From assembly GCF_002252475.1 (NCBI RefSeq), contig NZ_NNRK01000021.1, positions 1 to 64,000 on the forward strand: 64,000 nt of DNA, in the 5' to 3' direction. Of the stretch, positions 1,133 through 46,896 are shown in pieces. The notes beneath the pieces are model-generated. The model did no database searches and was not told where the DNA came from. It worked only from the letters and a program-made list of their open reading frames with translations. A program made the translations under genes and the position numbers. Position 1 is the first letter of the stretch, and each line of letters opens with the position of its first letter. The stretch comes from Brucella rhizosphaerae (GTDB lineage Bacteria > Pseudomonadota > Alphaproteobacteria > Rhizobiales > Rhizobiaceae).

Positions 1133-4100
1133 CTAATTTTGAACCCGCGATGAACGAAGAGCCTGAACCGTATGATGCAGACCACTGCCATGCGCTCCTT
1201 TAAACCACCAGACATCCCCATCGCGGATGTCGGTCTGTAAGGTTTTCTGGAGTTGATCAAGTGTTTCAAAGTGGTGCCCCCGTTGCGCTTCAGGTAATTC
1301 CTTCCAGAACTCGCCGTAAGCCTGACCAACCGCATAGACCTGTTCAATGGGAAGGCCGGCAATAACATGCGCAAGACGTGTATGGATCGCTGTTGAATTT
1401 TGTCCAAGCTCAAGCATTTCACCCAAAACCAGAACGCGACGAGATGCTTTCATTTCGGCGGCGAGCGCTTCAGCTGCGGCTAACATTGCTATCGGCGCTG
1501 CGTTGAAAGCATCGTCAACGATCATCGCTTTGCCGCCCGACAATGCAGAGACATAGAATGGTAGTCCACGACCAGCGGGTGGAGACCAATTCTCCAGTAT
1601 CTTCGCTGCAGTCCGCCAATCCTCACCTGCCGCTGCTAAACAGGCCAAAGTTCCAGCAACATTGACAGCCTGATGTCGCGCACCAGGAATTAGCTTAAGC
1701 TTTAATTGTTCATTGCCAATTTTATATTCGGCTGCGCCAGACGAAGAATCAAAGTCAGTCAGCCTCCAGTCGGCAGATTCGTGTGCTCCATAGGTGATAA
1801 TTTTCACCCCTTTACGCTCCGCATGTCCCCTTACACGTTCATAAAGTGCCGTGTCACGGCAGATCACGGCAGTACCATCCGGTTCTAGTGCGCGGATCAC
1901 GGCGGACTTGGCGTCTGCAATGCCTTCGATCCCGTTAAAAGCTTCCAAATGCGCTTCAGAAATGTTGGTCACTATTGCAATGTTTGGCCTGAGCACGGGT
2001 GCCGATCGTGTTGCGTGTCCGACAGCAACTTCCTGAACAAGATGACTATGCTCGGGCTTGAGCGCTGTCATTGTGCGCATAACCCCCATGAACATGTTCT
2101 GATTGCCGGTTGTACCCAATATTCCTTGATCAGCATGTAATCTGCTAAGGGTGGACAGCAACATGCTATTGACGCTCGACTTGCCCGCACTTCCCGTAAC
2201 GGCAAAGCAAGTGCCTTTAAAAGCGTCACGACGCATACCTGCAAGTGCTTTGGTGGTGTGCGACCATCTCTGATCATGAATATGCGGCACATCCGAAAGC
2301 GGCGGCTCAGGAACGATCCCTATCGTTGCGACGATAGATGCTTTGTGCTTTTGCAACTGCGCTTGTGTCAGTCCCATAGGACCGTCTTCGGTTTGAACAA
2401 TTGCAACTGATTGATCGTTCAACGTTTCAACCGAAAATGAAATAGCATTAAACTTGACCGCATCATTGCTTTCGGACAGTCCGCTACCCGGACCTAATAG
2501 CCGCCTGATTTCTCCCAACGTCGAGGACATTGGTTGGCTATTCTTTACCGGTTTAGCCGCATCTCTCAAAAGATCGCACACACTTCCAAAATCGGAATCG
2601 CGACGAGAACCTTTTACAAGCACAACATCATCTCGTTCCAATATCGGATAGAGGAACTGAGCCAATTCCTTAGCCGTAGAAAAATGCGGCCCGAGGATGC
2701 TTATGGGCAGTTTCTCACGCAGAAAACGCATTTCATCGCCATGAGTGAGAACGATCCTCGGATTCGCCGTAAGCAATGGCTCTGCAAGGCTCTCGTGGAG
2801 CTGCTTACCCATCTCTCCCAAGTGTACAATGCGCCCAAGAACCGCAATTTTACGACCCTTGTTAGCCGGCGTGATATTTTCCAGAACCGATATCGCATTG
2901 AGCATCGAACTGACTTCGGCATTCCAGCTATCATCAATGATTGTTGCCACGCCGCTGGAAAGAAGCGGAAGCGAAAAACGCTGCAGTCGACCCGTCTGCA
3001 CGGCCAACCCCATCAGGCTGTTTGTCATCCTGGTAACGTCATGACCCATTGCATAAAGGACGCAAAGTGCTGACATCGCGTTCGTAATCATGCCATTTCC
3101 CGGCAATGGAATTTCCAGAACCCCTTCCGATCCATCAGGGGTGCGGAAGCGTATCGTACTGGCTTCAGCATTCATCTGCCGGTCGATGATACGCATTGTG
3201 GCGCGCGCGCTCTCGCCGAAAATAATGATTTTCTTCGCATGATCGCTAGCTTTGGCCAGAATATCATCAAAACACGCCAGATGATCGCCGATAACAGCCA
3301 CGGCTTGTCCGGTCAGCCCATCAAAAATTCTGGATTTCCATTTTGCAACATCGCTAAGAGATTTAACCCGGCGATCGGACTGAGACATTCCTATTTCGGT
3401 CACCAGAGCAATTGTTGGCTCAATGAGGCGCGTGACCGGGCCTCTTTCCATCCAAAGCGCGCTTTGGGCGATTTCCACAATTGCAGCTTTGTGGTCGAGC
3501 GACAGATTTGCAAACAGTGCGGGTGCACCAACCCGTGAATTGTAATTATCGTAGCTGGAGAGTATTTTTTGATCTCGTCCAAGCATCTCACGGATCATGC
3601 TGACGGTCGTTGATTTTCCAACAGTTCCCGTTACCGCGATGACATCATTTTTGTATCGCTTGCGCGCGGCAATGCCCAATTCAATCAATGCTTTGATGGG
3701 ATCTGCGACTTGCAAAAGTGGAAAATCGTGCGAAAGGCCAGGAACCGGCTTGGTGACGATTGCGCCCGCAAATGCAGCTTCATTTTTTACGAGCAAGCTG
3801 TGCGTGTCCATACCGGATCGCTTCGTGGATGAATATTGTTCATGAAAAGCAAGGTGTTCAAATTCCGACGCGATATAAAGTGTTGGTCCGTCGACGAATT
3901 TTTGATGTGTGAGACCCCGTATAACGGAGCGGACAAACCAGTTGGGAGGTGGTGCCACAAGCCACTTTCCGCCTGTGACTGTGGCCAGCTGACCGGCTGT
4001 CCATGTCTGGCCCGATAAGCAATCATCAATGCTGTCGTCATGCTGCTGCCGGTAAATTCTTGAGCTGGATGCAGCCACCACTGGCTGCTTCACAACTGGT

Positions 4101-7100
4101 GTCGGAAGATTGGGGACGGCGAGCTGAATATTAAACGGCAGCGCAACCGGAGCCACCTCATAGGTTTTCGACACGATACCGAGAGTTAGTTGCAGATCGA
4201 CATTCTCCCAATCCTTCAAATAAGGAGGACGTAAACCATAGAAATCCCGGTAAATCTGGCCCGGCTTCCATGAAGTAGTTGGAGCAATCCAGTCACACGG
4301 ATCGTGATCCATGGAACGCCCCCAGGGGCGCATTCGTGTGGGCTCTAAAGGGACTGCCTGAATGTCAAGCCGAACGTCCTCATCGATAAAACTATCAGTG
4401 CACCAGAACGTCTCAACCCAGAGCATCCGTCGGTCGGTAAATTTTTGCGGTGAAACGCGAGCACCCAATAAGGTCAACGGGCCAATTTGAACCGGAGGAA
4501 TACGCGCATCATCTGGTACTTCGTCCGGGTTCCAGCATTTATCGAGTTCGCAGGTAAGAGCCTCTGGCAGGCAATGTTTCTCACTCACTGGGGTAACTCG
4601 ATCAGTAACAATTTTTGGCGTCGCTCGCGTTTCTGGTGAAAGATGCACAATGCCTTGCCCTGATGCACTTACCTGCATTTGTGTGCCTGCATTCAAGCAT
4701 TGCGTTGCAAACTCCTGCGCGGCTTTGCATGCCTCCTGGCCCTCCAGCTGCCGTGTTGTACCAAAGCCACCGCTAAGCGGTGTAAAGATGACGGTCTCAA
4801 CACCATTGGAACTTAGCTCCAGCGAAAACAGTCCCGATTTCGTCGGCTTGCTCTGAATGGCATCAAACAAAAAATCGCCCGCATCGTGGATAATCGGGCG
4901 GCCACTATAAATTTCGACAGCTTGAAGCAGATGTGCTGATGCACCCAATACAGCATCGGCACCCGCCTCTATAATCGCGTGGCCCACCGCTACTTCATCA
5001 GCCGATGGCTCCGCTCTCAGATTGTCACCCCAGTGGACCGCAACAAGCACTACGTGTGCTTGCTTACGAGCATCGTTGATCCTTGGCGCCAGCATGTCGA
5101 GCCAGGCTTGGGGATTACTCAAAGACAAATATGCCGAGCCCGCGGTATCTTCTGTTGCGGCAAACCGATGTTGCGTCGCATCGACAGAAAATATTGCGGC
5201 CTTCAGATCTCCCACCTGTTTGATGACAGGAGTGAAAGCAGCATTCCGGGTTTCCCCCGTGCCGACTGATGAGATACCCACTTGCTTCAAGAACCCGGCC
5301 TGCTGCTGCAATGCCTGCGGCCCATAATCCCCGCTGTGATTATTCGCGGTGGCAACCAAATCAATTCCCGCCCAGGTCAGGATTTCGAGCATTTGCGGCC
5401 GTGCTCGATAATAATATGGACCGCCTTCGCCTTTGTTGACACCTTGTTCGCCAAGCGTTGAGACGACACACTCCAAATTGATTATCCGAAGATCCGCTTT
5501 TTCAAGTTGCGGAATGTTCAATATATTCCCGACACCCAGTTCACTGAGCCGGTAATGCTGGCGGCGCCCAAGGTTAACGTCGCCACCCCAGGCAACAATT
5601 GGCCCCTTCGGATCAAAAGCATCCGCTAGTCCGACTGCGGCGTCCGATGCCCAGGGAGCCTTCCAATCAGAAAGTTTCAACCGATAATGTCGATAGGCGA
5701 TCAGCCCGGAAAGATAATGTTCCACATCGTCAATACGCACACGAAATGCGTGGTGGCGGATGAAGAAGCTTCCAGCTATTCGGGCCGGATTAGCAAAAAA
5801 CATAGCGATCTCGGGCCAGAAGTGCCCGTTCATGAGATAATGAGCGCGAGTTTCAAGCGCTGTGTAAAATTTTTTCTTATCGATGGTCGCCACAAGGTCG
5901 CTCAGCGAGCTGTCTGCTTCGAGCCGCGCAATCATTTGCTGCGCTGCCATCATAAGCTCCAGCAAAGTCGGAAAAGTGGTAATCCGTTCTGTCACGAAAT
6001 CCAGATAGTCGGCAAAATTCTTCAGCCCAAACTCATAATAGCGACGCTCGGGTTTGTATCGCGTCAGTTCGTTAACCGCATAAGCAAGCCAATGATCGTG
6101 GGCTTTCCAGTGATCGGCCTCAATAAAATAATCGACGGCTCGTTCAACGCAATTCAGCCATCTTGGATCTTTGGTAAGCGCATAAAGCCGCAACAATCCG
6201 AAGGCGGCTTCACCATCATAATAAATGGTTCTGAAGTGTGCTTTCACGTCTAATGTGGGATACTGTAGAACATGGGCGAACTGTCCTGTCGCAGGATTTT
6301 GCATGAGACAAATCGCAAGAGCCAACTGTTCAAGAAGGGCATGATAGCGCGACGTCTGATGAAGCTCGCTATACTTCACGAGAGCCAACAAACAGACCGC
6401 ATTCCCGCCCAGCTTCACCTCGTCTTGGGCATCAACAAGGACGGTGATTTCCTGCCCCTCATGTAGGACAGTTTTAATCAACTTTTCAGTTAGGTACGAA
6501 AGGCCGCGTTCAATGGCTTCTCCAAGCCCATCGTCACGCGTGACCTCATAGGCTTCAATCATCGCGTATAGTGAGCTCGCATGGCGCAACGCATTGTAAG
6601 TCTTGATTTCACGATCAAAACAAGGATGCCAACCATAGATGAAGCGGCCAGTCTCCTGCGTCTGCGAAGCAAGATAACGACTACCTCCCGCGATCAACTC
6701 ATCAATATCTTTTAATTCAAGTGTTTCTATATTTCGGCGACTGCAATTCTGCCCCTGTCCCTCAATCTTATAGATCGTGGGCTCACCAGATGTGAGGAAC
6801 ACGCCCCGCGTCGAAAAGCGAAATACAGTATCTTCATCTGAGATTGAAAATTTATCTTCGCCGTGGCGGAGTTTTAGATACCGGTCAAAGTTTGCAACAT
6901 TAAAGACGCCGCTTACGGTGTCTCCGCCGCCATAGAGAACGGCATTCGCATTAATTTCCGTCTCAAGCAGGGCAATGTGGAACTGCCGATCAAACGAAAT
7001 ACCAAATCTGAAATAGTTGCGTTTGGTGGCTTCGATCTCTGACTTCAGCTTTTGCCAACTAAGAGCTTCCACACTGTTTGGCCATTCGATACGCAGCCAT

Positions 7101-7327
7101 TCGATTTCAAACGAATTGCGTAGCCACGCTTGCGTTGCTTTTTCTATGAGCGCTTTCCAACAATCTTCTATGCTTGTGGCCGAAGCGTTAACTGTTATCG
7201 CCCGACGCTTTCCGTCAGTCATGGAGAGAAAGAGTACGTAAGAGGGAGCATCTCCAGTTAAAGGTACGATATTTGTGAAAACCGCTTGCGTGGCGCGTTC
7301 TATCAGATCCACAAACTTATCTTGCAT
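1133..7327 (-). CDS. Giant fusion: helical domain + CapA phosphoesterase + two MurF-like ligases
   Basis: A single uninterrupted frame of 2064 residues with a good ribosome site (GGGGAAGAG) before the ATG at 7327. Residues 1 to about 560 are not recognised with certainty; the W-H-P-x-x-D motif near a run of helices suggests an alpha/alpha-toroid fold of the kind found in glycosidases and epimerases. Residues about 575-880 are CapA/PgsA-like (GGDVNLGR, the metal-site stretch ATANNHSGDYG, then HWGDN). Residues about 1115-1590 form a MurF-like ligase with P-loop TGTVGKST near residue 1230, and about 1600-2064 a second one with TGSAGKSS near 1708. CapA proteins and Mur-type ligases (CapB) together make poly-gamma-glutamate in other bacteria, so synthesis or attachment of an amide-linked polymer is inferred. 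No signal peptide is evident, although CapA is normally extracytoplasmic. The gene stands alone, with no exporter nearby. Domain calls for CapA and Mur are strong; the product is unknown. Confidence 0.85.
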   Translation of the reverse strand: MQDKFVDLIERATQAVFTNIVPLTGDAPSYVLFLSMTDGKRRAITVNASATSIEDCWKALIEKATQAWLRNSFEIEWLRIEWPNSVEALSWQKLKSEIEATKRNYFRFGISFDRQFHIALLETEINANAVLYGGGDTVSGVFNVANFDRYLKLRHGEDKFSISDEDTVFRFSTRGVFLTSGEPTIYKIEGQGQNCSRRNIETLELKDIDELIAGGSRYLASQTQETGRFIYGWHPCFDREIKTYNALRHASSLYAMIEAYEVTRDDGLGEAIERGLSYLTEKLIKTVLHEGQEITVLVDAQDEVKLGGNAVCLLALVKYSELHQTSRYHALLEQLALAICLMQNPATGQFAHVLQYPTLDVKAHFRTIYYDGEAAFGLLRLYALTKDPRWLNCVERAVDYFIEADHWKAHDHWLAYAVNELTRYKPERRYYEFGLKNFADYLDFVTERITTFPTLLELMMAAQQMIARLEADSSLSDLVATIDKKKFYTALETRAHYLMNGHFWPEIAMFFANPARIAGSFFIRHHAFRVRIDDVEHYLSGLIAYRHYRLKLSDWKAPWASDAAVGLADAFDPKGPIVAWGGDVNLGRRQHYRLSELGVGNILNIPQLEKADLRIINLECVVSTLGEQGVNKGEGGPYYYRARPQMLEILTWAGIDLVATANNHSGDYGPQALQQQAGFLKQVGISSVGTGETRNAAFTPVIKQVGDLKAAIFSVDATQHRFAATEDTAGSAYLSLSNPQAWLDMLAPRINDARKQAHVVLVAVHWGDNLRAEPSADEVAVGHAIIEAGADAVLGASAHLLQAVEIYSGRPIIHDAGDFLFDAIQSKPTKSGLFSLELSSNGVETVIFTPLSGGFGTTRQLEGQEACKAAQEFATQCLNAGTQMQVSASGQGIVHLSPETRATPKIVTDRVTPVSEKHCLPEALTCELDKCWNPDEVPDDARIPPVQIGPLTLLGARVSPQKFTDRRMLWVETFWCTDSFIDEDVRLDIQAVPLEPTRMRPWGRSMDHDPCDWIAPTTSWKPGQIYRDFYGLRPPYLKDWENVDLQLTLGIVSKTYEVAPVALPFNIQLAVPNLPTPVVKQPVVAASSSRIYRQQHDDSIDDCLSGQTWTAGQLATVTGGKWLVAPPPNWFVRSVIRGLTHQKFVDGPTLYIASEFEHLAFHEQYSSTKRSGMDTHSLLVKNEAAFAGAIVTKPVPGLSHDFPLLQVADPIKALIELGIAARKRYKNDVIAVTGTVGKSTTVSMIREMLGRDQKILSSYDNYNSRVGAPALFANLSLDHKAAIVEIAQSALWMERGPVTRLIEPTIALVTEIGMSQSDRRVKSLSDVAKWKSRIFDGLTGQAVAVIGDHLACFDDILAKASDHAKKIIIFGESARATMRIIDRQMNAEASTIRFRTPDGSEGVLEIPLPGNGMITNAMSALCVLYAMGHDVTRMTNSLMGLAVQTGRLQRFSLPLLSSGVATIIDDSWNAEVSSMLNAISVLENITPANKGRKIAVLGRIVHLGEMGKQLHESLAEPLLTANPRIVLTHGDEMRFLREKLPISILGPHFSTAKELAQFLYPILERDDVVLVKGSRRDSDFGSVCDLLRDAAKPVKNSQPMSSTLGEIRRLLGPGSGLSESNDAVKFNAISFSVETLNDQSVAIVQTEDGPMGLTQAQLQKHKASIVATIGIVPEPPLSDVPHIHDQRWSHTTKALAGMRRDAFKGTCFAVTGSAGKSSVNSMLLSTLSRLHADQGILGTTGNQNMFMGVMRTMTALKPEHSHLVQEVAVGHATRSAPVLRPNIAIVTNISEAHLEAFNGIEGIADAKSAVIRALEPDGTAVICRDTALYERVRGHAERKGVKIITYGAHESADWRLTDFDSSSGAAEYKIGNEQLKLKLIPGARHQAVNVAGTLACLAAAGEDWRTAAKILENWSPPAGRGLPFYVSALSGGKAMIVDDAFNAAPIAMLAAAEALAAEMKASRRVLVLGEMLELGQNSTAIHTRLAHVIAGLPIEQVYAVGQAYGEFWKELPEAQRGHHFETLDQLQKTLQTDIRDGDVWWFKGAHGSGLHHTVQALRSSRVQN

Positions 7328-33510: not shown

Positions 33511-34108
33511 TTCTCGGCATCTAAGCCGAAGTCAGGCAGAAATTCCACTTATCCTAGTTGTTCAAATTTCCCGAACCACTTCTCTAATTGAGCCCAAACA
33601 TCCTTTGTACAGGTGGGTCAGCAAATTTAAGGAGGGTTCCCATCTGTTGAGAGTTGCAGCTTTAAAGCAGATCGTTTGATTCTCAGGATCGACGAGCTGC
33701 CGACACAAATCTGTCTGGTTTTTCCAAACGTTCCAATCATCCCAGCGACTTGTGTCTCTTTAATCGGGACTATTTGCTCTCACTGGACTTAGAGCTCTTT
33801 TATTATTTCATTGGGCTTTCCTCCGATCACATGAGTTTTTCATACATATTCCTTCAACTTAAGTCGAAAGTGTCCGTTATTATCGCCGATATGGCTTGAC
33901 AATTTAGGGGAAATCTCGCATCCGACTAAATATTATTCTGGTTGCAGCATTGCTGTTCTGCGTGTGGGGCGGGAGGAACTTCAGACAATTCGGCAACCAA
34001 CGCATGCATAGTTCAATCGAGTATCGATCATCATAATTGGCAAAGTCTTTTATATGATCCACCGACCTTTGAGTGGGAATTGGTCGGTTCAATCGGGGAC
34101 GTATTGAA
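33511..34108. other. Intergenic stretch before the CDI operon
   Basis: 598 bases without a recognisable gene. It presumably includes the outer end of the IS3 remnant and the promoter of the plus-strand operon starting at 34109; no promoter could be assigned with confidence. Confidence 0.35.
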
Positions 34109-34702
34109 ATGCAATTTAGTATGAATTTGGCTCCTTTGGGTGCCGCTGTAATTATTTTGATGTCGACCTTTCTTCCTGCACAGGCACAGGAAGCCGCTGC
34201 TGCCGTTGCCAAACCGGAAGCCCCCACAGTTCAATCCACCCGTTTTGATGACTGGTATTATCGTTGCGCTGAGGTCAAAGCTGCTGACGGGAAAGCTCTG
34301 TCACAATGTGAAGTGGCACAGATTGCCCAGGTCAAGCAAGGCGAGGAGAACGTCAATGTTCTCACATTGGCTATTGCCAAGGCTGCGCCCGAAGCTGGAA
34401 AGAAGCCTTCCGGCAATGAGCTGCTACTGACTGCTCTTGTGCCGCTGAATGTTGTGCTGCCAATCGGTCTTGGTTTGGCTGCCGACGGCAAGGATGTCGT
34501 CACGATCCCTTATCGCAATTGTAATCAGGCCGGATGCTGGGCACAGCAGAAGCTCGATCAAAAAATGCTGACAGCTTTGCAGAAAGGGTCTGCAGGAGAA
34601 GCCCGTCTACGCCTGATGAATGGGCAGAACATCAATCTGAAGTTTTCGTTGAAAGGGCTCACCAAGGCTCTCGCAGAACTGCAAAAACCAACTAAAGCCT
34701 GA
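34109..34702 (+). CDS. IalB-family exported protein
   Basis: 197 residues from the ATG at 34109, which has a GGGGA ribosome site and gives a standard signal peptide (NLAPLGAAVIILMSTF, cleavage after AQAQ). The mature protein has the IalB pattern: RFDDWYYRCAEV, SQCEVAQIAQV, then NCNQAGCWAQQ, with four conserved cysteines probably forming disulfides. IalB was first described as an invasion-associated protein of Bartonella and is widespread in Rhizobiales, with no defined activity. It is the first gene of an operon with the CdiB transporter (11-base gap), which suggests a periplasmic accessory role in two-partner secretion here. Confidence 0.8.
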   Translation: MQFSMNLAPLGAAVIILMSTFLPAQAQEAAAAVAKPEAPTVQSTRFDDWYYRCAEVKAADGKALSQCEVAQIAQVKQGEENVNVLTLAIAKAAPEAGKKPSGNELLLTALVPLNVVLPIGLGLAADGKDVVTIPYRNCNQAGCWAQQKLDQKMLTALQKGSAGEARLRLMNGQNINLKFSLKGLTKALAELQKPTKA

Positions 34703-34713
34703 CGGATAAGATT

Positions 34714-36483
34714 ATGATTTATTCTGTTCGTTTGGGCCAGCTTTGGTTCGCAGTTTGCGTGGCTTTGCTTGCTTCAGCAACTTCTGGTTTTGCGCAGCAA
34801 TCACCAATTGCGGCATCCAATCCGTCTGCATCCCCTGCCGATGATTTCATGCGTCGTCAGGCCGAACAGGATTTGGAACAGCGATTACGTGCTTTGGGAG
34901 ATGCAACTCCACGTGAAGTGACACCAGCCACGCCCGAGCAAGCTGGGCCTTTGAGCAAAGCTGCAAAAGGTCCATGCTTCGCAATTACCCGTGTCGAGGT
35001 GGAGGGTGTCACTCTGCTTTCCAAGTCAATACTTGCGCCTACGCTGGCGTCATATCAAAACAAGTGCATCGGCCTTGCTGACATCAATGTTCTCTTGAAA
35101 GACATCACCAGCCTTTACATGGATGCAGGCTATATTACGTCGCGCGTTTATGTGCCGGAACAGGACATTGCAAAGACCAGAGTTTTGCGCCTTGTGGCTG
35201 CCGAAGGTTCACTTTCTGATATTTACCTGAATGGTAAACCTGCAGCTTATCCGGGATTGCTTGCAACAGCCTTTCCGGGTTTGAAGGGTAAGCCCGTTAA
35301 CATCCGCGATGTTGAACAAGGCCTCGATCAGGTCAATCGACTGTCTTCTAACAATGCCAAGACTTCAATGTTGCCCGGAAAAGAGCCCGGAGCATCTATT
35401 CTCAACGTCGAGAATAAACCCGGTCTACCTTGGCATTTCTCGGTGGCCAACAACAATCTTGGCCAGAAGTCGACCGGTTATTCGCGATCATCAGTGTCGT
35501 TTCGGATGGATAATCTGGTCAATCTGAATGACCTCGTATCGCTCAACTATGAACACACCGGGCCTGATTATCCCTGGCCCAACGACGGTACAGGACAGAG
35601 CAACAGCATTTCCGGCTCGATCAGTGTGCCTTATGGCTACTGGAGCTTCACGCTCAATGGCTCCTATTACAAATACCGCAGTTCCGTTCCCGGCCAATAT
35701 TCTGACATCGACACATCCGGAAATTCCAAACAATTGGGCTTCAACGTTGATCGGGTAATCCTGCGAGACAAGGATTCTATCACCACGTTCAATGCAGGTC
35801 TCGCGTATAAGGCTACAGACAACTTTTTGATGGGTAATCTGATCGAGGTTGGCAGTCGCGAATATTCGGTTGCCAATCTCGGTATCTCTCATTCGCGTCG
35901 TATGCTGGGCGGGCTGTGGGTTTTTGACCTGAGCTACAATCAGGGCCTTGGCGTGTTTGGTGCAACCAGACGCGGAGAACCCGGCGCAGGTGATGCCGAG
36001 CCTGAATTTGCGAAGTTTACGGGGACGATAAACGTCACCAAACCTTTCCAGTTGGCGAGCCAGAACCTGCAATTCTCTACGCTGATCAACGGGCAGTATT
36101 CACCGGACAATCTCTATGGGGCCGAGCAAATATCGCTTGGCGGCTATTCCAACGTGCGCGGAACCCGCGACAGTATTCTGTTCGGCAATAATGGCCTGTT
36201 CACCCGCAATGAGATCACGTGGCGCACGTTGCCGTGGAAGGACAGCGAACTTCTGACCAAACGGCTAGGCGAGTTGCGGCCCTATGCAGCCATTGATTAT
36301 GGCCATGTTTTTGAACAGGCGCGATTTGGCATTGAAGGTGGTGATGTTTCTGGTTGGACCGTGGGGATGCGTCTGGCTGGTGGCAATATTGGTGCTGACA
36401 TTGGCTATTCGCGCATCATCAAAAGTACGGACGAGACCAACGGTAAAGATCTGTTTTTTGTCAGCACATCACTGCAGTGGTGA
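34714..36483 (+). CDS. cdiB: Two-partner secretion transporter (TpsB/CdiB)
   Basis: 589 residues with a signal peptide (cleavage near SGFAQQ). Domain order is that of FhaC/ShlB/CdiB: N-terminal plug/linker, two POTRA domains (about residues 85-240; FAITRVEVEGVTLLSKSIL, then YITSRVYVPEQDI and GLKGKPVNIRDVEQGLDQVN), and a 16-strand barrel with the motif VRGTRDSILFGNNGLF near residue 485 and a C-terminal strand ending in SLQW. It exports the CdiA protein encoded downstream across the outer membrane. A 20-base gap to the lipoprotein gene supports one transcript. Confidence 0.93.
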   Translation: MIYSVRLGQLWFAVCVALLASATSGFAQQSPIAASNPSASPADDFMRRQAEQDLEQRLRALGDATPREVTPATPEQAGPLSKAAKGPCFAITRVEVEGVTLLSKSILAPTLASYQNKCIGLADINVLLKDITSLYMDAGYITSRVYVPEQDIAKTRVLRLVAAEGSLSDIYLNGKPAAYPGLLATAFPGLKGKPVNIRDVEQGLDQVNRLSSNNAKTSMLPGKEPGASILNVENKPGLPWHFSVANNNLGQKSTGYSRSSVSFRMDNLVNLNDLVSLNYEHTGPDYPWPNDGTGQSNSISGSISVPYGYWSFTLNGSYYKYRSSVPGQYSDIDTSGNSKQLGFNVDRVILRDKDSITTFNAGLAYKATDNFLMGNLIEVGSREYSVANLGISHSRRMLGGLWVFDLSYNQGLGVFGATRRGEPGAGDAEPEFAKFTGTINVTKPFQLASQNLQFSTLINGQYSPDNLYGAEQISLGGYSNVRGTRDSILFGNNGLFTRNEITWRTLPWKDSELLTKRLGELRPYAAIDYGHVFEQARFGIEGGDVSGWTVGMRLAGGNIGADIGYSRIIKSTDETNGKDLFFVSTSLQW

Positions 36484-36503
36484 TGCGTTAGTAGGGGATA
36501 GTT

Positions 36504-36956
36504 ATGGTTTTAGGGAATATTTTGAACAACAGGAAACGGCATTTTGCGGTAGCGACAGCGATGGTCCTTAGCATCGCTCTTGCAGGCTGCGGCGGTCGTG
36601 AAGCAAAACCTATTGCGATAACCAATCCGACCGATAGCGCATTTGATTGTGCGGGGATTTCACGGGAATTTGCTGCGAATGAGCGGCAGATAATGGTCAC
36701 TCTGAAAGAACGCAGTCAGGCTCAGGGCAAGAATATTGTTCTGGGAGCCGCAGGTGTCCTTTTCCTTCCTGCACTGTTTTTCATGGACCCGAAGTCGCCT
36801 GAGAAGGTGGAGATCGATGCGCTGCGCAATCGCAACAAGGTTCTCGAAGACATTGCACGCACCAAGAAGTGTTCGGCCCTCAAATCCCAACTGACCGAAG
36901 TTTACAAAAAACTCGACAATCCGGGCAGCGGACAGTCCGCAAAATCGAGAGATTAG
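36504..36956 (+). CDS. Small lipoprotein of the CDI operon
   Basis: 150 residues with a lipoprotein signal: basic N-terminus, hydrophobic ATAMVLSIALAGC with the lipobox LAGC (Cys at residue 29). The mature part has a Cys near residue 50, a hydrophobic segment (VLGAAGVLFLPALFFM) and a charged helix (KVEIDALRNRNKVLEDIA). No family was recognised. Located between cdiB and cdiA. Burkholderia CDI loci (bcpAIOB) also carry a small lipoprotein, BcpO, so an accessory role in CdiA export or assembly is plausible but not shown. Confidence 0.75.
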   Translation: MVLGNILNNRKRHFAVATAMVLSIALAGCGGREAKPIAITNPTDSAFDCAGISREFAANERQIMVTLKERSQAQGKNIVLGAAGVLFLPALFFMDPKSPEKVEIDALRNRNKVLEDIARTKKCSALKSQLTEVYKKLDNPGSGQSAKSRD

Positions 36957-37016
36957 AGACTCTTGCGGCTTAAACGCCGCATGATTTTCGATTCATATTT
37001 TAAGGCAGGATCGGCC

Positions 37017-40000
37017 ATGAAGAATTTTGCATACCGTCATTATTTCTCGCGTGTATCCGGTTTCTCCAAGGGAACCAAGCGGACACATCGCTGGTTTGAT
37101 CCTGTCGCATTTGCCCGTAAAGGCGTTGCCAGTCTTCTAAGTGGGCTTCTGGTTCTCCAGCCCGTGTTATTGCAGGCGCAACAGCTGACACCGGATGTCA
37201 GTGCTCCGATTGGCAATCAACCGGGTATAGGGGCGGCCCCCAATGGTGTTCCACTAGTCGATATTGTGACGCCGAACCAGCAAGGGCTGTCGCATAATAA
37301 ATATGGCGACTTCAATGTCGGAACGCCTGGTCTGATCCTCAATAACCACAATGGCGAGTTAGGAAACTCGAAGCTCGGTGGCGTGACACCGGGCAATGCC
37401 AATCTGAAGAACAGCGGGCCTGCAAGCGTCATTCTCAATGAAGTTACGAGTGGCAATCGCAGTGCCCTGCAAGGGGCAACGGAAGTGTTCGGCGGCAGAG
37501 CAGATGTCATTATCGCCAACCCTAACGGGATCACCTGTGATGGCTGTGGCTTCATCAACACGCCACGCGCCACGCTAACCACAGGCACACCCGACATCGA
37601 TGGTACAGGAAGGCTGTCTGGTTTCACTGTTCAGGGCGGTGATGTCACCTTTGGATCGAAAGGTGGCAACTTTGCTTCTGGCGATGGAACCGTTGATCTT
37701 TTCGATATCGTGTCCCGCCGCATTCAGATCGATGGTCCGGTCAATGGCAAAAACCTCCGGCTGACGGCAGGTCGACAAAAGTTCGACTACACTACGGGCG
37801 AAGCCACGGCTTTGAGCGGAACTGAGGATGCGGGCGAGTTCGCCATTGACGGCTCTGCCCTTGGTGCCATGCAGGCCGATCGTATCAAGATCGTTGTCAC
37901 CGATAAAGGTGCTGGCGTGCGTATGCGCAATGATATGGCGGCCAATGCGGGCGAACTTACGCTTTCTGCAGATGGCAAGATATCGCTTGGTAACGCTTCT
38001 GGTCGTGACGGCGTTTCCGTACAATCGAAGAGCAGGCAGGTCGAAGCAAAGAAGATCACCTCGAAAAAGAAGGTGGTCGTCAAGTCAGCCAAAGGCATCA
38101 CACTGGAAGCGGTTTCTGCCGACGAAGATGTCATTCTGGGCAATGGCGACGGCTTGCTTTCTGTCGCAGGGGACGTTGGATCCCTTAGAAATATAGAGCT
38201 GACCTCGTTCGGTGCGATTACGGCTGGCAATATCGCAGCTGGCAAGAACGCAAGCTTGCAAGCGGGACAGGGCATCGCTGCTGGTCAGCTTAATGTCGAC
38301 GGTGCGGCAAATCTGACCACGGCATCTGGTAACATCGCGCTGTCCGGCACTACTAAAGCAGGTGGCGGCGTGCTGACCATGACGGCTACGTCCGGTTCTA
38401 TCACCGCTGCCTCGCTTGTCAGTTTCAACAATATGGCGCTGACCGCCGGCACCGACATTACGACCGGTGATATTCTGTCTGGCGGTGCGCTTGTTGCCTC
38501 CGCGCGTTCTTTGAAAGCTGGGAATGTTGTCTCGGGCGTTGATGTCGTCGCTACCAACGCTGCCAATGGCGCTATCCAAATCGGATCGACAGGCGACATG
38601 CGCCTTGCTACGTCTGGGGGGATTGATGTTGCTTCTCTGCTTTCTGCCGGAAATCTGAATATAGCCGCTGCAGCACTTGCAGCGCAAAACGTGACCAGCC
38701 ACGGGACTGTTGTGATTTCTGGCGACACAAATGTCTCGGGCCAGATTCTGGGCAGTGGTGATGTCAGCATCGCGGGCGCAAACATCACAGCTGGTGCGAT
38801 CATCTCAGGCGTTGATTTTGTAGCCAGCAGGTCCTCAAACGGGGCCATTATTGTCGGAAACACAGGCGATACAACGCTTTTAGCGCAAGCCGGAACGATT
38901 AATGTTGGCACGCTTCTTTCGGCGGGCAATTTTCTTGGCGATACCGCCACATTCAAAGCCGCTAATGTCACCAGCTATGGTGCGGCTAATATCGCCGGCA
39001 CAACGACGATCAGCGGCCAGCTTCTGGCGGGCTCAGACGTCACCATTAACGGATCAGCGATTTCTATCGGTGCTGCTGTTGCTGGTGTCGATCTGACTGC
39101 ATTGCGCCAAGGCAATATCGTTTTGGGGAATGGCGCACGCACGCTTAATCTCACCGCGACCGCTGGTGATCTCAAAGCAGATCGGTTGCTATCATCTGGA
39201 AACACAATTGCTTCTGCTTCCAGAAATCTTTCCGCAAATATTCTCACGCATGGCGACCTCAGTCTTACAGCAGGTGGTAATCTTACGCTTTCCGGTCAAT
39301 CACTTTCGGGCGGAAATGCAACTCTCACAGCAGGTTCGATGAACATCGGAACACTTGTTTCCGGTGTTGATTTTGCAGCAACTGAACAATCAGGCCGTTC
39401 GCTTACCTTAAAACCTGGCGCGGCCAGTGCGACCAGTTCGACTGGCAATGCCCAGTCTGGCCAGATGACATTAACGGCCACTGGCGAGATTGACGCTGGA
39501 ACTTTGTTGTCAGCACAGGCTTTGACGGTCAATGCCGGATCATTCAATGCCACAAACGTCACCAGCAATAGTACTGCTAATATCACGGGCGCAACTACGA
39601 TCAGTGGCCAGCTTTTGGCGGGTTCTGATCTTGCCGTTACGGGGGCTGCAATCAACATCGCGACGGCTGTCGCTGGCGTTGATCTGGTCGCTTTGGCCAA
39701 AGGAACAATAGCAACAAGCAATGTTGCAAGTGGCCTCAACCTGATTGCTACGGCTGGTGATCTGATCACCAACCGTCTTCTTTCCTCTGGAACAACAGTC
39801 GCGTCTGCTACAAGAAACCTGTCAGCGAATGTCGTTTCGCGCGGCGATCTGACCCTGACGGCGGGCGGCGCTGTTACCCTTTCCGGCCAGTCTCTGGCAG
39901 GTGGCAATGCGACCATCAACGGAGCATCACTTAACATCGGAACGCTTGTTTCTGGCGTTGATTTTGCTGCCACCGAGCAGTCAGGCGGCTCTCTGATCCT

Positions 40001-43000
40001 CAAGACTGGTTTGGCTAATGCAGGCCAGATGTTGCTCAATGCTTCCAGTGGCTCGATTTTCGCTGATCAGTTGCTGAGTGGCGGCGATCTGAAGGCCAAA
40101 GCACAACAGAACGTTTCCTACAATAGCTTGCAAAGCTTCGCCTCCGCCGATCTCAATGTGGTCTTAGGTGCCATCAGTCTGGACAAGAATACGGTCGCGA
40201 AGGGTAATATCGCGCTGACGTTGCAAAGCCTTGATCTGAGCAATAATCGTTCCAAGCTTGCGACCGCTGGAAATCTCATCGTAAACGCTGCAAGTGCCGA
40301 TCTTTCGAACTCGACGCTCATTTTTGGCGGCATTGCTTTGAACCTCTCAGGTTCTGCTGATGCTGCAAATTCGAAAATCCGCGCGGTTACAGCTGATGGC
40401 GGCAGCGGCGATATTACAATCAATGCCCAGACAATATCGACGACGTCTGCGACGGCGCTCCTTGCTGCCAATGACCTCACTCTGACACTTGCTTCGCTTA
40501 CAAACCCTGGACAGCTTGCCGCCAACAGAAATCTGACGCTCAATATTGCAGGCAGCTTCACGAATACCGCGTCCGGTCTTGTTTATGCCGGACAGGACGG
40601 TCGCCTTTATGTTGCAGGCGATCTTCTCAACGATCAGGGTGCGATCCTTGTTGGTAACGACCTGACGATTGCAGCAAACGCAAATGGCGAACGCAATCAG
40701 TCCATTACCAATGTGTCCGGTCTAATTAAAGCCGGGCGTGATGCCGACATTACAACGGCAAATCTGACCAATAAGCGTAGTACAGTTCCGACCTGGTCGA
40801 CGGTTGTTGTGAGCAACGACGCTATTGCAAAGTTTGAGCTTAATCCCGAGACATGGGGTAAGCCGCTTGGACATATCTTTGTCAACTCAAACACCAACGC
40901 ACCGCTTAATCTTTACCCCGGCGAAGATTATGCTGAGCTCGCATGGATGGCACAGCTTTACGGCGTGATCACCTTTGCTGACGGTACATCCTACCGCACG
41001 CGCAGCTTGCAGTCTTATGAAGAAAATACTCCCTGGAAATGGGGTGACAGCCTCAGCAGCGTCCAGGCAATGCGCAACTGGCTGCTGTCGCGTTATCCGG
41101 GCGACGGAAAAGGCAACATTCTTCTGACACCTGATTTGCAGAGCAAATCGGTCATCATCGTCAACCGCAACGATCCGTTTGCCTGGACATTTACCTGGGA
41201 CGAAGGCACCCAGATGCGTCAGTCGATTGAAGAACAGCGATTTGATGGCAATCTATCTCCTGAGGCTCTTATCCAGACAGGCCGCAATCTGAACATTGAT
41301 GCGACGATCCTCAACAATGCTCATAGCTCGATTGAAGCGGGTGGAAATGCAAAACTGACGGGCTCGGTTCTTAACAATGAAGGTGTTGCGCTCTATCGCA
41401 CTGTGACTTCCAAGTGTGAGGCGACAGGTGGTTGCGAGGCGTATGATGCCAATGGCAATCGCGATGGTACCAATGATCTGGACAAGGGTAATTCTCGGGT
41501 AACAGGCCAAACGATTGTTGGCGGCGCATTCGGCAACATCAAAGCAGCTGGCAACATGGATATCAGCGGCTTTGCGAGCGTCAACAACACCTCTGCACCC
41601 GGATCGATTGCTGGCGGCGCGCAGCTTTCTACTGCACCGGTCACCAATGATCCGACTGCTGCCCTGAATGGCCTGACGGCAGCGGGTGCGTTGTTCACAC
41701 CAAATTCTGCAATAGCAAATCTTTTGGCTGAAAAGGGTATCTCGGTTTCCGGCAATAGCCTGCAAGCGGGCGGACTGCCATTATCACCAGCGGAAATTAT
41801 TGCGGCTCTGGGTTCGATAGCGCCTAAGCCAGACTCCGGTGGTTTTGGCGGCACAATTCCCGGACAAGTCTTTCTCTATGAAACCCGTGCCGAGTTCCTG
41901 GACGTAAGCAAGTTCTACGGTTCCGGCTATTTCATCAATCGAATTGGTTATAACCCTGACCGTTCTATTCCGTTTATGGGGGACGCCTATTTCGAGAACC
42001 AGCTGGTCGATCAACAATTGCGTCAGCTCATCAATCAGGGGCTTGGCAAGGGTTCGTTCATACCGGGAAGCGACGCCATTGAACAGATGAAGGTTCTGCT
42101 CGACCGCGGCGCGGACTTTGCGAGCGCCAATGGTCTGACAATCGGCGAAAAGCTTTCACCAGAACTCATCGCCAATCTGACCGAAACGATGGTCTGGTAT
42201 GAGAAGAAGACCGTCAACGGCATCGAAGTGCTTGTACCGACCGTTTATATCGCCAATGCCGACAAGGCGAACTTGACGGTTGCAGGCGCAATCATCTCCG
42301 GTGACACAGTCAATATGAATGTCAGTGATGTCAGCAACGCTGGCGTTATCCAGGCTAAAACTGACCTGAAGCTTCAGGCTACAAATATCACCGCAACGGG
42401 CGGCAGCTTTACCGCTGGCAACGATCTGTCGCTGTCAGCATCGCAGAACCTGACAATTGCGGCAGCCGACATGCAGATCGGCGGTGAGACCTTCGTCAAA
42501 GCGGGCAGCGGTGTGCAGGCGGGTGGCAATGCAAGCCTTTCGGCAGGTGATGCACTCACCTTGCGCGGTGCAGAGGTCAAAGCAGGTAATGACGTCGATC
42601 TCACGGGACAAACTGTGACGCTCGACACGGCAAAGGCGACCAATAATGGTTCCGACAATGTCATCGGCACAAATGTCCAATCGGGCGGCGATACGACGAT
42701 CACCGCCAAACAGGATGTGAATGTTATTGGTTCCAATGTTGCAGCTGGCGGCAATCTCGGCATTGAGGCTGAACAAGGTTCGGTCAATGTTGTCGCGGCA
42801 GGCGTTGAGAAGAAGGTCAACGGTGTTGCTGGCACACGCATGTCGCAGACGGATTCCACCTTTGCACAAACATCCAACCTGTCGTCGGGTGGTGACACCT
42901 CCATTAAAGCAGGCGACGATATTCTGATATCGGGTTCAAAGGTGAAGGCAGGCGGTGACGTCAGCATCGAAGCCAAGGACGATATCAATATCACGGTCGC

Positions 43001-46000
43001 TCAACAGCGTACCGAGACAATTGGTTCGGAAGTCAAACAGGGTTCCGAAACCCATATTGGCTCGGAAATCAGTTCTGGCGGTTCGGCCAGCGTTGCAGCA
43101 GGCGACAAGACCGATGTCGACAATTCGCATGATCTCAACATTATTGGCTCGAAAATTGATGCCAAGGGCAAGGTTGATCTCAGCGCAACCGACAATGTCA
43201 CCATCGCAGAAGCGCGGGATACGGGCTATTCGCAGCTTGATACGAGTTCAAAGGGTATTTTCAGCAAAAAGGAAAGCCATAGTCGTACTGAAACCGAAAC
43301 CGCTGTTGGATCGTCGATTAGCGGTGGTGACGGTGTCGATATCAGCTCCGGCAAGGATACGACGATTTCTGCCTCGAACATTCAGGCGGGAACGGCCGAT
43401 AACAAGGCTGATCTGAATATCGATGCAGGTGGTGATCTGATCATCGCGTCCGGCAAGAACACCTCTGAAACGGATGCCTCCAAATCAAAATCAGGCCTTT
43501 TGTCGAAGAAGAGCGACAAGGGACACACTTACGATGAAACGACGGTTGCATCCGAGCTTGGTGCATCCGGCAATGTGAACCTCAATGCTGGCGACAATGT
43601 CGTGATCTCCGGCTCCAAGGTCACGGCCGGTGAGAACATCGCAGTCGAAGGTGACAGCGTTTCCATCATCGGTGCGCAGGAACAGCACGATGCTTCATCG
43701 TCCTCCAAGAAGTCCGGACTTGGTGCCGGCTCCGGCGACGGCTTCTATTCGGTCTGGGGCAAGGAAGAAAAAAGCAGCAAGGAAAACACTGTCGCGAACG
43801 TCAGTTCTGAACTGTCCGCTGGAAACGATGTCTCCATCAAGGCTCGCGAAACCGACGTCAACATTGTCGGCTCGAAAGTCGAAGCAGGCAACGATATCGC
43901 ACTCGATGCGGCGCGCGACGTTAACATCCTGCCGGGTGCGGAAAGTTACGCTTCTGAGGACAAGGAGAAGCGATCCGGTTTTGGCGTTCAGGTGAAGTCC
44001 AGCGAAGGCAGCGCTTCCATCGGTATTGGTTTTGGCTCGTCGAAAGACGAAACGAAGCAGGGTGCTGAGACAAATGCTGTCTCCAGTCTAAAGGCTGGCA
44101 ACAACGTCATCATCAATGCGGGTCGCGATGCGAACCTTCAGGCCGCACGGGTTGAAGCCGAAAACGATGTCGCCATTACAGCAGAGCGGGATGTCAATCT
44201 TCTCGCTGCACAGGACAAGACCAATTACGAGCATATGCATGAGGAACTGTTTGCGGGGATCACCGCGAGTGTTTCCACAGGTCTCGTCAGTTCGGCCAAG
44301 AGCATTGCTGATGCTGCGGGTAAGGTCGCCAAGGTGTCAGACGGCTATTCCGCAGCCAATGCAGGCTTTGCAGGTCTGAAGGCAGCAGACGCATTGAACA
44401 ATATCAGCTCGATGTTCACGCTGGATGAAAACGGCAATGCCAAGGGCAATGTCGCCTCTGCGTCAGTTGGCGTGGGGTTTGAATATTCAAAGTCGAAGGA
44501 AAGTGCAGAAAGCTCGACCCCTGTCGTTACAGGCATTCGTGGCGGAAACAGCGTTTCCATTGAAGCCAAGTCAGGCGACATCAACAGCCATGGCGCACAG
44601 ATTGTTGCTGGCTATGATGAAAATGGTGTGCTTTCTGGTGGAGCTGGCGATATCAGCCTGAAAGCTGGCAATGATATCAATCTGGAAAGCGCGCAGGCTA
44701 CCAACTCTTCGTCGTCATCCAGCACATCAGCAGGAGCGAGTGTTGGTGTCTCGGCAGGTGTATCCATTACGGGCGTTGAATTTGGTCCCTATGCCAATGC
44801 GCATGGCGGCGTCGGGAAATCCAAAGGCAACGGGACGACTCAGGTCAACACTCACGTCAATGCCACGGGCAATATCACCATTGAATCCGGCCGGGACACC
44901 AATCTGAAAGGTGCGGTCGTCGAAGGTGACACCGTCACGGCGGACGTTGGTCGCGATCTCAACATCATCTCGGTTCCCGACACCGGGGAAAACTCGAACA
45001 AGTCTGTTTCGCTTGGCGTCAGCACCTCTGGCATTTCCCCGGGCTATAGCACAGGTTCCGGCGAAACCAACTGGATCAGCGAGCAGTCCGGTCTCGTGTC
45101 AAAAGGTGAGATGGATGTCACTGTCGAGGGCAACACGCATCTGGGTGCAGGCAAGATCGTTTCTAAGAGTGGTGATCTTACCCTCGATACCGGTACGCTA
45201 ACCCATGAGGATTTCTCAGGATCGAAGCAATATGAGGGCTTCGATGTTCAGGCCAATATCGACCTAACCGGTAAGCAACAGCAGCCGGATCAGACCTCTC
45301 AGCCAAAGAACTCAGCTGAAGGCACTTACCAGCTTGACGACACGCGTCAGGAAGTGCGCGCCACCGTCGGGCCGGGTGAGATCATTATCCGCGACAAGGA
45401 CAAACAGGCAGAACTGGAAGCGAGCGGCCAGACCGAAGACCTCGCAGCGCTCAACCGCGATCCCGACATGGCTTACGAAATCACCAAGGATAAGCATGTC
45501 GAGATCGACTATTATCTGTCGGATACGTCGGTAAAGGCGGCGTTGGAGGCTGGGAAATCAACGGTTGAGATCGTTATCGATGCTCTGGGGCGGATGGCGA
45601 ATGATGGTAAGCTCACGCCACAGGACTACGATACGGCTCGCAGACTTGCGAAGTATAAAGACGATCCGAACGTTATCGCTCAGTTGAATGCATGCGGTCA
45701 GCGGCAGGGCTTCAATCAGTTCAGCCCGTTGGATTGGCTGATAACACCCGCTCATGCGCAGGCCCCGTGCATGATCAGTACGACCGAAGGAACATTTCCG
45801 ATCTCTGTAATTGGTGCAGAGACATGCAGAACGGCATTTGCTGTGATGACCGGAACTGCTGGTTTGATGGGTCTTGCGACTGCAACCATTTTACTTGGCA
45901 CCACGAATCCAGCAGGCGGCGGCAAGATTGATGAGACGCACAATCTGGATGACGGTACTGTCGTACGCCTGCAGGGGAACGGTTCTGACCTAAAGCGGAC

Positions 46001-46568: not shown

Positions 46569-46578
46569 ACGGTATTTA

Positions 46579-46896
46579 ATGATGAAAATAATGGAAAGAG
46601 ATGGCTTCGAAAGGGTAGTAGAAGTCTATGCAATTTATTGGTTTGATGAGGTAAGGCACCATCTTGTCATTCCATATAAGAAATTTGGTGGTTTAATGGT
46701 AGTAACAGAAGAAAATTGTGATGTAATTGACCCTTCAATAAATGGATTTGTTTTAATAAAATCTGGAAGTGGCCGTGATATGTTTATCCATTGGGCTACT
46801 GAAAAAGATGCGTTATTGGATAGGATGATTGATCACGATCCTGAAGCGATGGAAGAATTTGAACGCCGTTTGAAGGAAGGTAAGCCTGTGACTTAA
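46579..46896 (+). CDS. cdiI: CDI immunity protein for the cdiA C-terminal toxin
   Basis: 105 residues, acidic overall (C-terminal MIDHDPEAMEEFERRLKEGK). Position right after cdiA, small size and AT-rich sequence relative to the flanking cdiA sequence mark it as the immunity gene. No named immunity family is recognised. A paralogue with a diverged N-terminal two thirds and an identical last 28 residues is encoded at 49970-50287, next to a diverged copy of the same toxin, as expected for allelic toxin-immunity pairs. It should bind and neutralise the toxin in the cytoplasm. Confidence 0.75.
   Translation: MMKIMERDGFERVVEVYAIYWFDEVRHHLVIPYKKFGGLMVVTEENCDVIDPSINGFVLIKSGSGRDMFIHWATEKDALLDRMIDHDPEAMEEFERRLKEGKPVT

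Follow-up and report, generated by a model that had tools for sequence, protein, structure and literature searches.

A five-part Brucella rhizosphaerae protein with a CapA-like domain and two MurF-like ligases belongs to an apparently undescribed family often encoded near Asp-X repeat adhesins

The protein considered here is encoded near the beginning of a 64,000-nucleotide stretch of Brucella rhizosphaerae DNA (assembly GCF_002252475.1, contig NZ_NNRK01000021.1, positions 1 to 64,000; hereafter the window), which forms the start of contig C13 in a 4.9 Mb genome. Its single chain of 2064 residues has five parts, namely an N-terminal domain that we call T, a CapA-like domain, an unassigned segment, and two Mur-ligase domains (Mur1 and Mur2), and the enzyme apparently belongs to a bacterial family undescribed so far. 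In Gram-negative and Gram-positive bacteria alike, T genes often lie close to genes for adhesins with (Asp-Ala)n, (Asp-Ser)n or (Asp-Gly)n tracts, and the variable part that accompanies T, an amide ligase or a glycosyltransferase, matches the tract. We consider it somewhat probable that this multi-domain protein, predicted to be cytosolic, acts as an enzyme on a surface adhesin, modifying its stalk of Asp-X dipeptide repeats before the adhesin leaves the cell.

A single scan over genome contigs yielded 149 relatives, and keeping the best 80 gave 77 loci (L001-L077); by BLAST and domain seeds, T is the commonest constant part of the family. It occurs alone (~560 amino acids, aa), as T-Mur (~1030 aa), as T-CapA-segment-Mur1 (~1600 aa) and as T-CapA-Mur1-Mur2. 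Pelagerythrobacter rhizovicinus (L074) has the T-Mur form and Microbulbifer thermotolerans (L003) the T-CapA-Mur form. The exact order of the window protein was seen in 2 of the 74 T-bearing genes tabulated for these loci, one from Alcaligenaceae (L001; 2117 aa, best segment 45% identical) and one from Halomonas (L034; 2116 aa, 46%); a third gene (L028) has this order with acylphosphatase and VanY modules inserted between the ligases. T is also fused to a YheC/D ATP-grasp domain (L122), to three ATP-grasp stretches (L144) or to a glycosyltransferase (L124, L136), T and a Mur ligase are adjoining genes at L129, L133 and L143, and CapA-Mur proteins without T are found in some relatives (L042-L044, L052).

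At many loci the gene order is a giant immunoglobulin-like (Ig) repeat adhesin, a TolC-like protein, an ABC transporter, HlyD and T, which is a BapA-type operon for a type I secretion system (T1SS); an Agrobacterium plasmid with such an operon is annotated "BapA/Bap/LapF family large adhesin", and in Microbulbifer a few genes separate T from the T1SS, which is on the opposite strand. T comes straight after an autotransporter in two genomes of the window organism's family that are without that ABC protein; in Listeria, in several staphylococci and in one enterococcus it follows an Sdr-type or LPXTG protein. The export routes beside T are T1SS, autotransporter and LPXTG/Sdr.

Tracts of (Asp-Ala)n, (Asp-Ser)n or (Asp-Gly)n were present in low-complexity windows of 11 of 12 neighbouring adhesins, the exception being that of A. 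baumannii. A tract was called in the loci scanned where there were at least eight Asp-X, or at least six Asp-[ASGTN], dipeptides. The T loci counted were the 27 among L001-L077 with T1SS ABC and HlyD genes in the locus, and an open reading frame (ORF) bearing a tract was found at 22 of these (13 inside the locus, 9 in the adjoining stretch). Among the remaining five, at L031, L034, L070 and L077 the contig stops within the adhesin or short of it, and L065 was not in the scan; its twin, L066, has 932 dipeptides (L229). At L005 and L008 only one end of the tract-bearing ORF is within the stretch, and at L010 this ORF is on the opposite strand, several kilobases away from the T1SS. No tract was found at any of 17 ABC (T1SS) loci from 15 genomes without T, of which eight loci (L146, L148, L150-L153, L156, L157) hold the whole giant ORF by the T1SS, the ORF elsewhere overrunning the stretch or not being seen. 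These genomes comprised 11 T-less genomes with ABC matches above 550 bits (of 57 that were ABC-positive) and four T-less genomes from the window organism's family. Comparison of 22/27 with 0/17 gave a Fisher p of 7.7e-8, uncorrected for kinship; kinship alone does not explain the difference, because the ABC scores of the control loci (408-769 bits) span that of the T-bearing genome G225 (721 bits). A second control, twenty 20-kb stretches at round coordinates of four T-bearing genomes, held no tract (0/20). That the T1SS itself was the signal was considered and set aside, since tracts are absent at T1SS loci of T-less genomes and T is found also by autotransporters and LPXTG proteins.

Named plasmid records contained at least 15 dipeptides in 19 of the 22 T regions examined (22 of 54 T records), the exceptions being L248, with eight dipeptides, and L141 and L183, with none. 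Fifteen T genomes with no linked tract were searched by pattern and only the best places were translated; nine of them (L006, L011, L012, L017, L033, L038, L040, L056, L063) held an unlinked tract of at least 15 dipeptides. A scan of 349 genomes for 30-base repeats is tied to codon choice and overlooks the tract known from the window's own genome, so that its absences are uninformative.

The identity of X shifts with the partner of T. Ala was the commonest X at 23 of the 24 amide-ligase loci with a tract, and at all four loci with a glycosyltransferase partner (fused to T at L124 and L136, next door at L139 and L245) X was Ser in 91-100%; beside T alone, X was Ala or Gly. This count covers loci with both tract and partner, leaves out L138 and L243, and omits ten tract stretches whose T stands under another locus number (L193, L197, L229, L231, L233, L235, L236, L239-L241; Ala 76-100%). 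L138 and L243 are staphylococcal plasmids in which the Mur gene by T is in fragments, and there X was Ser in 67-69%; at L244, with a short Mur remnant, X was Ala in 66%. Two of the four glycosyltransferases were tested, and their best NCBIfam scores were to SdgA (L124) and SdgB (L139), both below the cutoff of 800. According to the available portions of the reports, SdgA/SdgB and GtfC/GtfD glycosylate Ser-Asp repeats of neighbouring adhesins (PMC7029136; PMC5230774), and the minimal SdgB target motif is Asp-Ser-Asp (PMC8561734). Like the T family, these enzymes are encoded near an Asp-X-tract adhesin, and they act on its tract (PMC7029136, available portion); SdgA/SdgB-like domains are fused to T (L124) or adjoin it (L139). 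Because of this analogy, and because Asp offers the sole reactive side chain in an Asp-Ala tract, the ligase would be expected to act on that tract. The window protein differs from SdgA/SdgB in having T, amide ligases and CapA and no glycosyltransferase, and in that the matching tracts are mostly Asp-Ala.

The sequence-only reading of this DNA had offered two options, a stand-alone synthase for an amide-linked polymer or a peptide modification not yet described; the second agrees with stalk modification and the first is not favoured, so that this interpretation held in part. A free-polymer synthase is disfavoured because adhesin operons house many of the relatives, T is retained where an ATP-grasp or glycosyltransferase module takes the place of the ligase, and Asp-X tracts are present in the adhesins. 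We likewise regard as unlikely the alternative that the product is a separate amide-linked polymer of the matrix, or a small peptide, similar to poly-gamma-glutamate or cyanophycin, that is bound by the adhesin or co-regulated with it, the Asp-X tract being a mere spacer. CapA and Mur domains do serve in poly-gamma-glutamate synthesis, and the acylphosphatase, VanY, FemAB-like and hexapeptide-transferase modules found in relatives suggest the building of small molecules or peptides; however, SdgA/SdgB-like glycosyltransferases replace the ligase module with the adhesin X residue shifting along with them, T1SS loci of T-less genomes have no tracts, and the neighbours examined, which were a part of the whole set, included no recognisable exporter of a capsule polymer.

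The features of the window gene are collected in Table 1. The frame starts with ATG, preceded by a purine-rich stretch, and has no internal stop; G+C in 500-base intervals was 0.48-0.54 within the gene and 0.42 in the interval spanning the gene start. An assembly chimera joining separate genes was considered and set aside as unlikely because the two distant full-length relatives, L001 and L034 (and L028, with insertions), share the domain order. The single uninterrupted frame, the CapA domain and the two Mur-ligase domains with intact P-loops, all anticipated by the sequence-only reading, were borne out, the domains by Pfam and alignment; the order of its domain list was right, but the list had passed over the conserved segment of ~200 residues between CapA and Mur1.

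Table 1. Features of the 2064-residue protein gene (positions are those of the window)
Feature	Residues	Position	Strand	Basis or remarks
Whole gene: T - CapA - unassigned segment - Mur1 - Mur2	2064 aa	1133..7327	minus	
T domain	1-551	5675..7327	minus	Conserved family; no Pfam/NCBIfam family above curated cutoff
CapA/PGA_cap metallophosphatase-fold domain	579-822	4862..5593	minus	Pfam; distant match to NCBIfam MslH model
Conserved unassigned segment between CapA and Mur1	~906-1112 (borders approximate)	3992..4612	minus	Alignment; "Bsw" seed matched in relatives
Mur ligase 1 (Mur1)	~1161-1600	2528..3847	minus	P-loop TGTVGKST and Lys kept; AHL His replaced
Mur ligase 2 (Mur2)	~1641-2062	1142..2407	minus	P-loop TGSAGKSS, AHL His and Lys kept

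The T region had been read as helical and unassigned; it is unassigned in that no Pfam or NCBIfam family reaches its curated cutoff, but it constitutes one conserved domain family. Weak, sub-cutoff matches to GH88 (E 0.0058), GH127, LanM and cellobiose 2-epimerase may point to an alpha/alpha toroid, and a T profile gave no credible match among PDB sequences. Identity to the window copy was 47-62% over 43 other aligned sequences, and at 64 positions no more than one of 54 sequences, Gram-positive ones included, deviated; 24 of these positions are Asp, Glu, His or Arg, and the window T bears the residues kept in the family, among them R248/H249, D411/H412 and D533/D534/E536/H537. As had been claimed, nothing resembling a signal peptide was seen in T (by hydropathy only). 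T could alternatively serve acidic low-complexity tracts as a chaperone or in export, with another target for the ligases fused to it, and the occurrence of T alone beside (DA)n and (DG)n adhesins would suit such a role; we think it distinctly unlikely, as the near-invariant positions with their many charged or His residues look enzyme-like and the toroid matches, under curated cutoffs as they are, are to enzymes. In public records the T genes of L133, L134, L137-L139, L242 and L243 are named "poly(glycerol-phosphate) alpha-glucosyltransferase"; the T proteins of L133 and L134 showed no glycosyltransferase domain by Pfam or NCBIfam.

The Pfam search gave PGA_cap, the poly-gamma-glutamate CapA domain, at 182.5 bits (cutoff 27), Mur_ligase_M in two stretches at 194.4 bits (cutoff 24) and Mur_ligase_C in two stretches at 83.5 bits (cutoff 28.4), and it showed no GT4 glycosyltransferase or ATP-grasp domain. 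The nearest ligase is MurF, NCBIfam and phmmer agreeing with Pfam: the NCBIfam murF score was 428.9 bits summed across two stretches, to be set against a cutoff of 288.6 meant for one protein, and the equivalog PRK14093.1 was not reached (414.8 of 544 bits). Equivalence to a CapB/PgsB ligase was not found (PgsB model, 11.6 bits, cutoff 222.7), and the cyanophycin synthetase and lasso-peptide epimerase MslH models scored 35.6 bits (cutoff 850) and 59.1 bits (cutoff 700). Mur ligases have an active-site Lys and an active-site His, and their loss had been named as a ground for doubting the ligases; the Lys is present in both domains, and the His of the AHL motif is present in Mur2 and in the genome's MurF-like gene but is replaced in Mur1 (SQS/SQT), both in the window and in the consensus of relatives. 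The metal site of Mur1 must therefore differ, or its activity be altered. The MurF likeness of both ligases, the VanY module of L028 and a cell-wall hydrolase at L065 would also fit a role in which the Mur domains act on UDP-muramoyl peptides and the adhesin is anchored or released through altered peptidoglycan or altered peptidoglycan precursors. We give this possibility very little credence; the genome has a separate MurF-like gene (L080, 29% identical), and glycosyltransferases and ATP-grasp domains are among the partners of T. Both window ligases fall among those of the family when 67 Mur domains are placed in a tree with that MurF-like gene as its root, in which support values were not read: the neighbours of Mur1 are T-CapA-Mur ligases, and Mur2 clusters with ligase 2 of L001 and of L034 and with that of a CapA-Mur protein of 837 aa from L046.

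The window's own genome has a BapA-type adhesin on contig C21 with 91 plus 9, in total 100, Asp-X dipeptides, adjoining its own T1SS and an alpha/beta hydrolase, and this adhesin would be the likely substrate of the enzyme. The absence of an exporter, claimed for this gene by the sequence-only reading, thus holds for the window but not for the genome, the BapA-type T1SS with its Asp-Ala adhesin being on another contig. No second adhesin of BapA type was found with the 140 N-terminal residues of the C21 adhesin as query, and a second, stand-alone T copy (62% identical) lies on contig C28. T was present in 5 and the ABC protein in 7 of 61 genomes of the organism's family; strong T matches (>800 bits) and the close ABC protein (>900 bits) occur in the same three genomes, the two weaker T genomes have autotransporters instead, and the four weaker ABC genomes have no T. 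Two genes beside the C21 operon (L087:6650-8876) are, by their first residues, presumably an aminotransferase and a Gfo/Idh-type oxidoreductase.

A number of observations weigh against stalk modification. Both own T genes are unlinked to the C21 adhesin, and the window gene sits at a contig end, with no adhesin gene toward base 1 and cytochrome-type genes on the other side. Mur1, as noted, is without the AHL His. T without a ligase occurs beside (DA)n or (DG)n adhesins, and therefore the ligase is not obligatory; at L010, where the partner is Mur, X was Ser 50 and Ala 48. The sequences are akin and the counts thus lack independence. In an evenly drawn phylum sample T was present in 13 of 349 genomes and a tract was confirmed in 6 of the 13 (G000, G054, G109, G156, which is the genome of L002, G164 and G225); no tract was present in the 8-18 kb read for G094, G133, G181, G240 and G364, the adhesin of G133 being cut by a contig end and T of G364 adjoining selenium genes, and G196 and G212 were read no further than T. 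In the same sample the ABC protein reached the set threshold in 5 of 13 T genomes versus 52 of 336 others. Six of the 15 genomes searched for unlinked tracts had no convincing one: L064 had eight dipeptides in a 46-codon frame, L026 had six, and in L014, L019, L029 and L057 there was none in the best places translated. Variovorax 110B and OK212 carry T, yet their BapB-like T1SS stretches (L191, L192) hold no tract, and with no T1SS inside 9 kb of the Variovorax T loci the adhesin context is not universal. The A. baumannii T adjoins a T1SS-type protein without a clear tract (L141 and L248, counted above). It is because of such weakening counts (the phylum sample, Variovorax, the plasmids and the unlinked tracts) that we hold stalk modification only a little above an even chance and are more reserved about the broader proposal below.

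If stalk modification is correct, T would bind or prime the Asp-X tract; Mur1 would spend ATP on converting the Asp side chain into an acyl phosphate, to which it would couple an amine (an amino acid or small peptide), like the Mur domain of cyanophycin synthetase on poly-Asp; Mur2 might extend or vary the branch made by Mur1; and the CapA-like domain may edit the branch by metal-dependent epimerisation or hydrolysis. A broader proposal, which we put forward tentatively and hold to be rather doubtful, is that at least two phyla carry a dedicated system that makes side-chain-decorated brushes from adhesin Asp-X tracts, in which a constant T would be combined with swappable modules (Mur or ATP-grasp for Asp-Ala, O-glycosyltransferases for Asp-Ser); the stalk made by the window protein would then be cyanophycin-like, its isopeptide branches epimerised or trimmed by CapA.

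Several known systems bear comparison. The Mur domain of cyanophycin synthetase (CphA) ligates onto Asp side chains of poly-Asp; CphA also has an ATP-grasp domain of its own, and its product is a free polymer. The likeness of the window enzyme to it is the weak profile match given above, and the proposed backbone would be, in contrast, a ribosomally made adhesin. The window PGA_cap domain is like that of CapA/PgsA, but no membrane anchor was seen and no capsule operon is in the window. To MslH there is a weak match only; PDB 8gq9, which we take to be MslH, and its kin were matched. The window ligases resemble MurF in predicted fold and most motifs, and differ in the missing Mur1 His and in standing beside a separate MurF-like gene in the genome. 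The BapA protein of Paracoccus denitrificans has 891 Asp-Ala repeats with T1SS genes adjoining, and it migrates significantly above its true mass, modification not being excluded by the authors; the available portion of that report names no modifying enzyme (PMC5588039). No description of the T-CapA-Mur-Mur architecture was found among the open-access papers listed. The work of Iyer et al. (2009) on amidoligases reportedly may discuss some of these genes.

Among other proteins near T, an alpha/beta hydrolase and a HExxH metallopeptidase recur, with N-termini that by eye resemble export signals. The HExxH metallopeptidase-like protein lies beside T in L028, L076, L121, L124 and L125 and beside the CapA-Mur gene in L043, that of L121 matching NCBIfam MXAN_6640_HExxH below cutoff; it could trim or release the adhesin. 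Proteins of ~600 aa with hydrophobic N-terminal segments (by eye) were seen near T at L034:16192-17961, L037:17723-19591, L076:3056-4837 and L125:4295-6091, and the two searched (L034, L125) had no Pfam match. At L003:14577-16565 and other Microbulbifer loci a RimK-type ATP-grasp plus acylphosphatase protein, adjoining a transglutaminase-like protein, lies between T and the T1SS. Elsewhere in the window (34073-48360) is a two-partner secretion (TPS) locus, with an IalB-like gene, a ShlB/FhaC-type transporter, a 3201-aa TPS hemagglutinin with Fil_haemagg_2 repeats and then a DUF6883 ORF.

If T-ligase enzymes do decorate the Asp-Ala and Ser-Asp stalks of giant adhesins, the name "poly(glycerol-phosphate) alpha-glucosyltransferase" now attached to several T genes would be wrong, and the family would represent a new class of amide-ligase protein modification.

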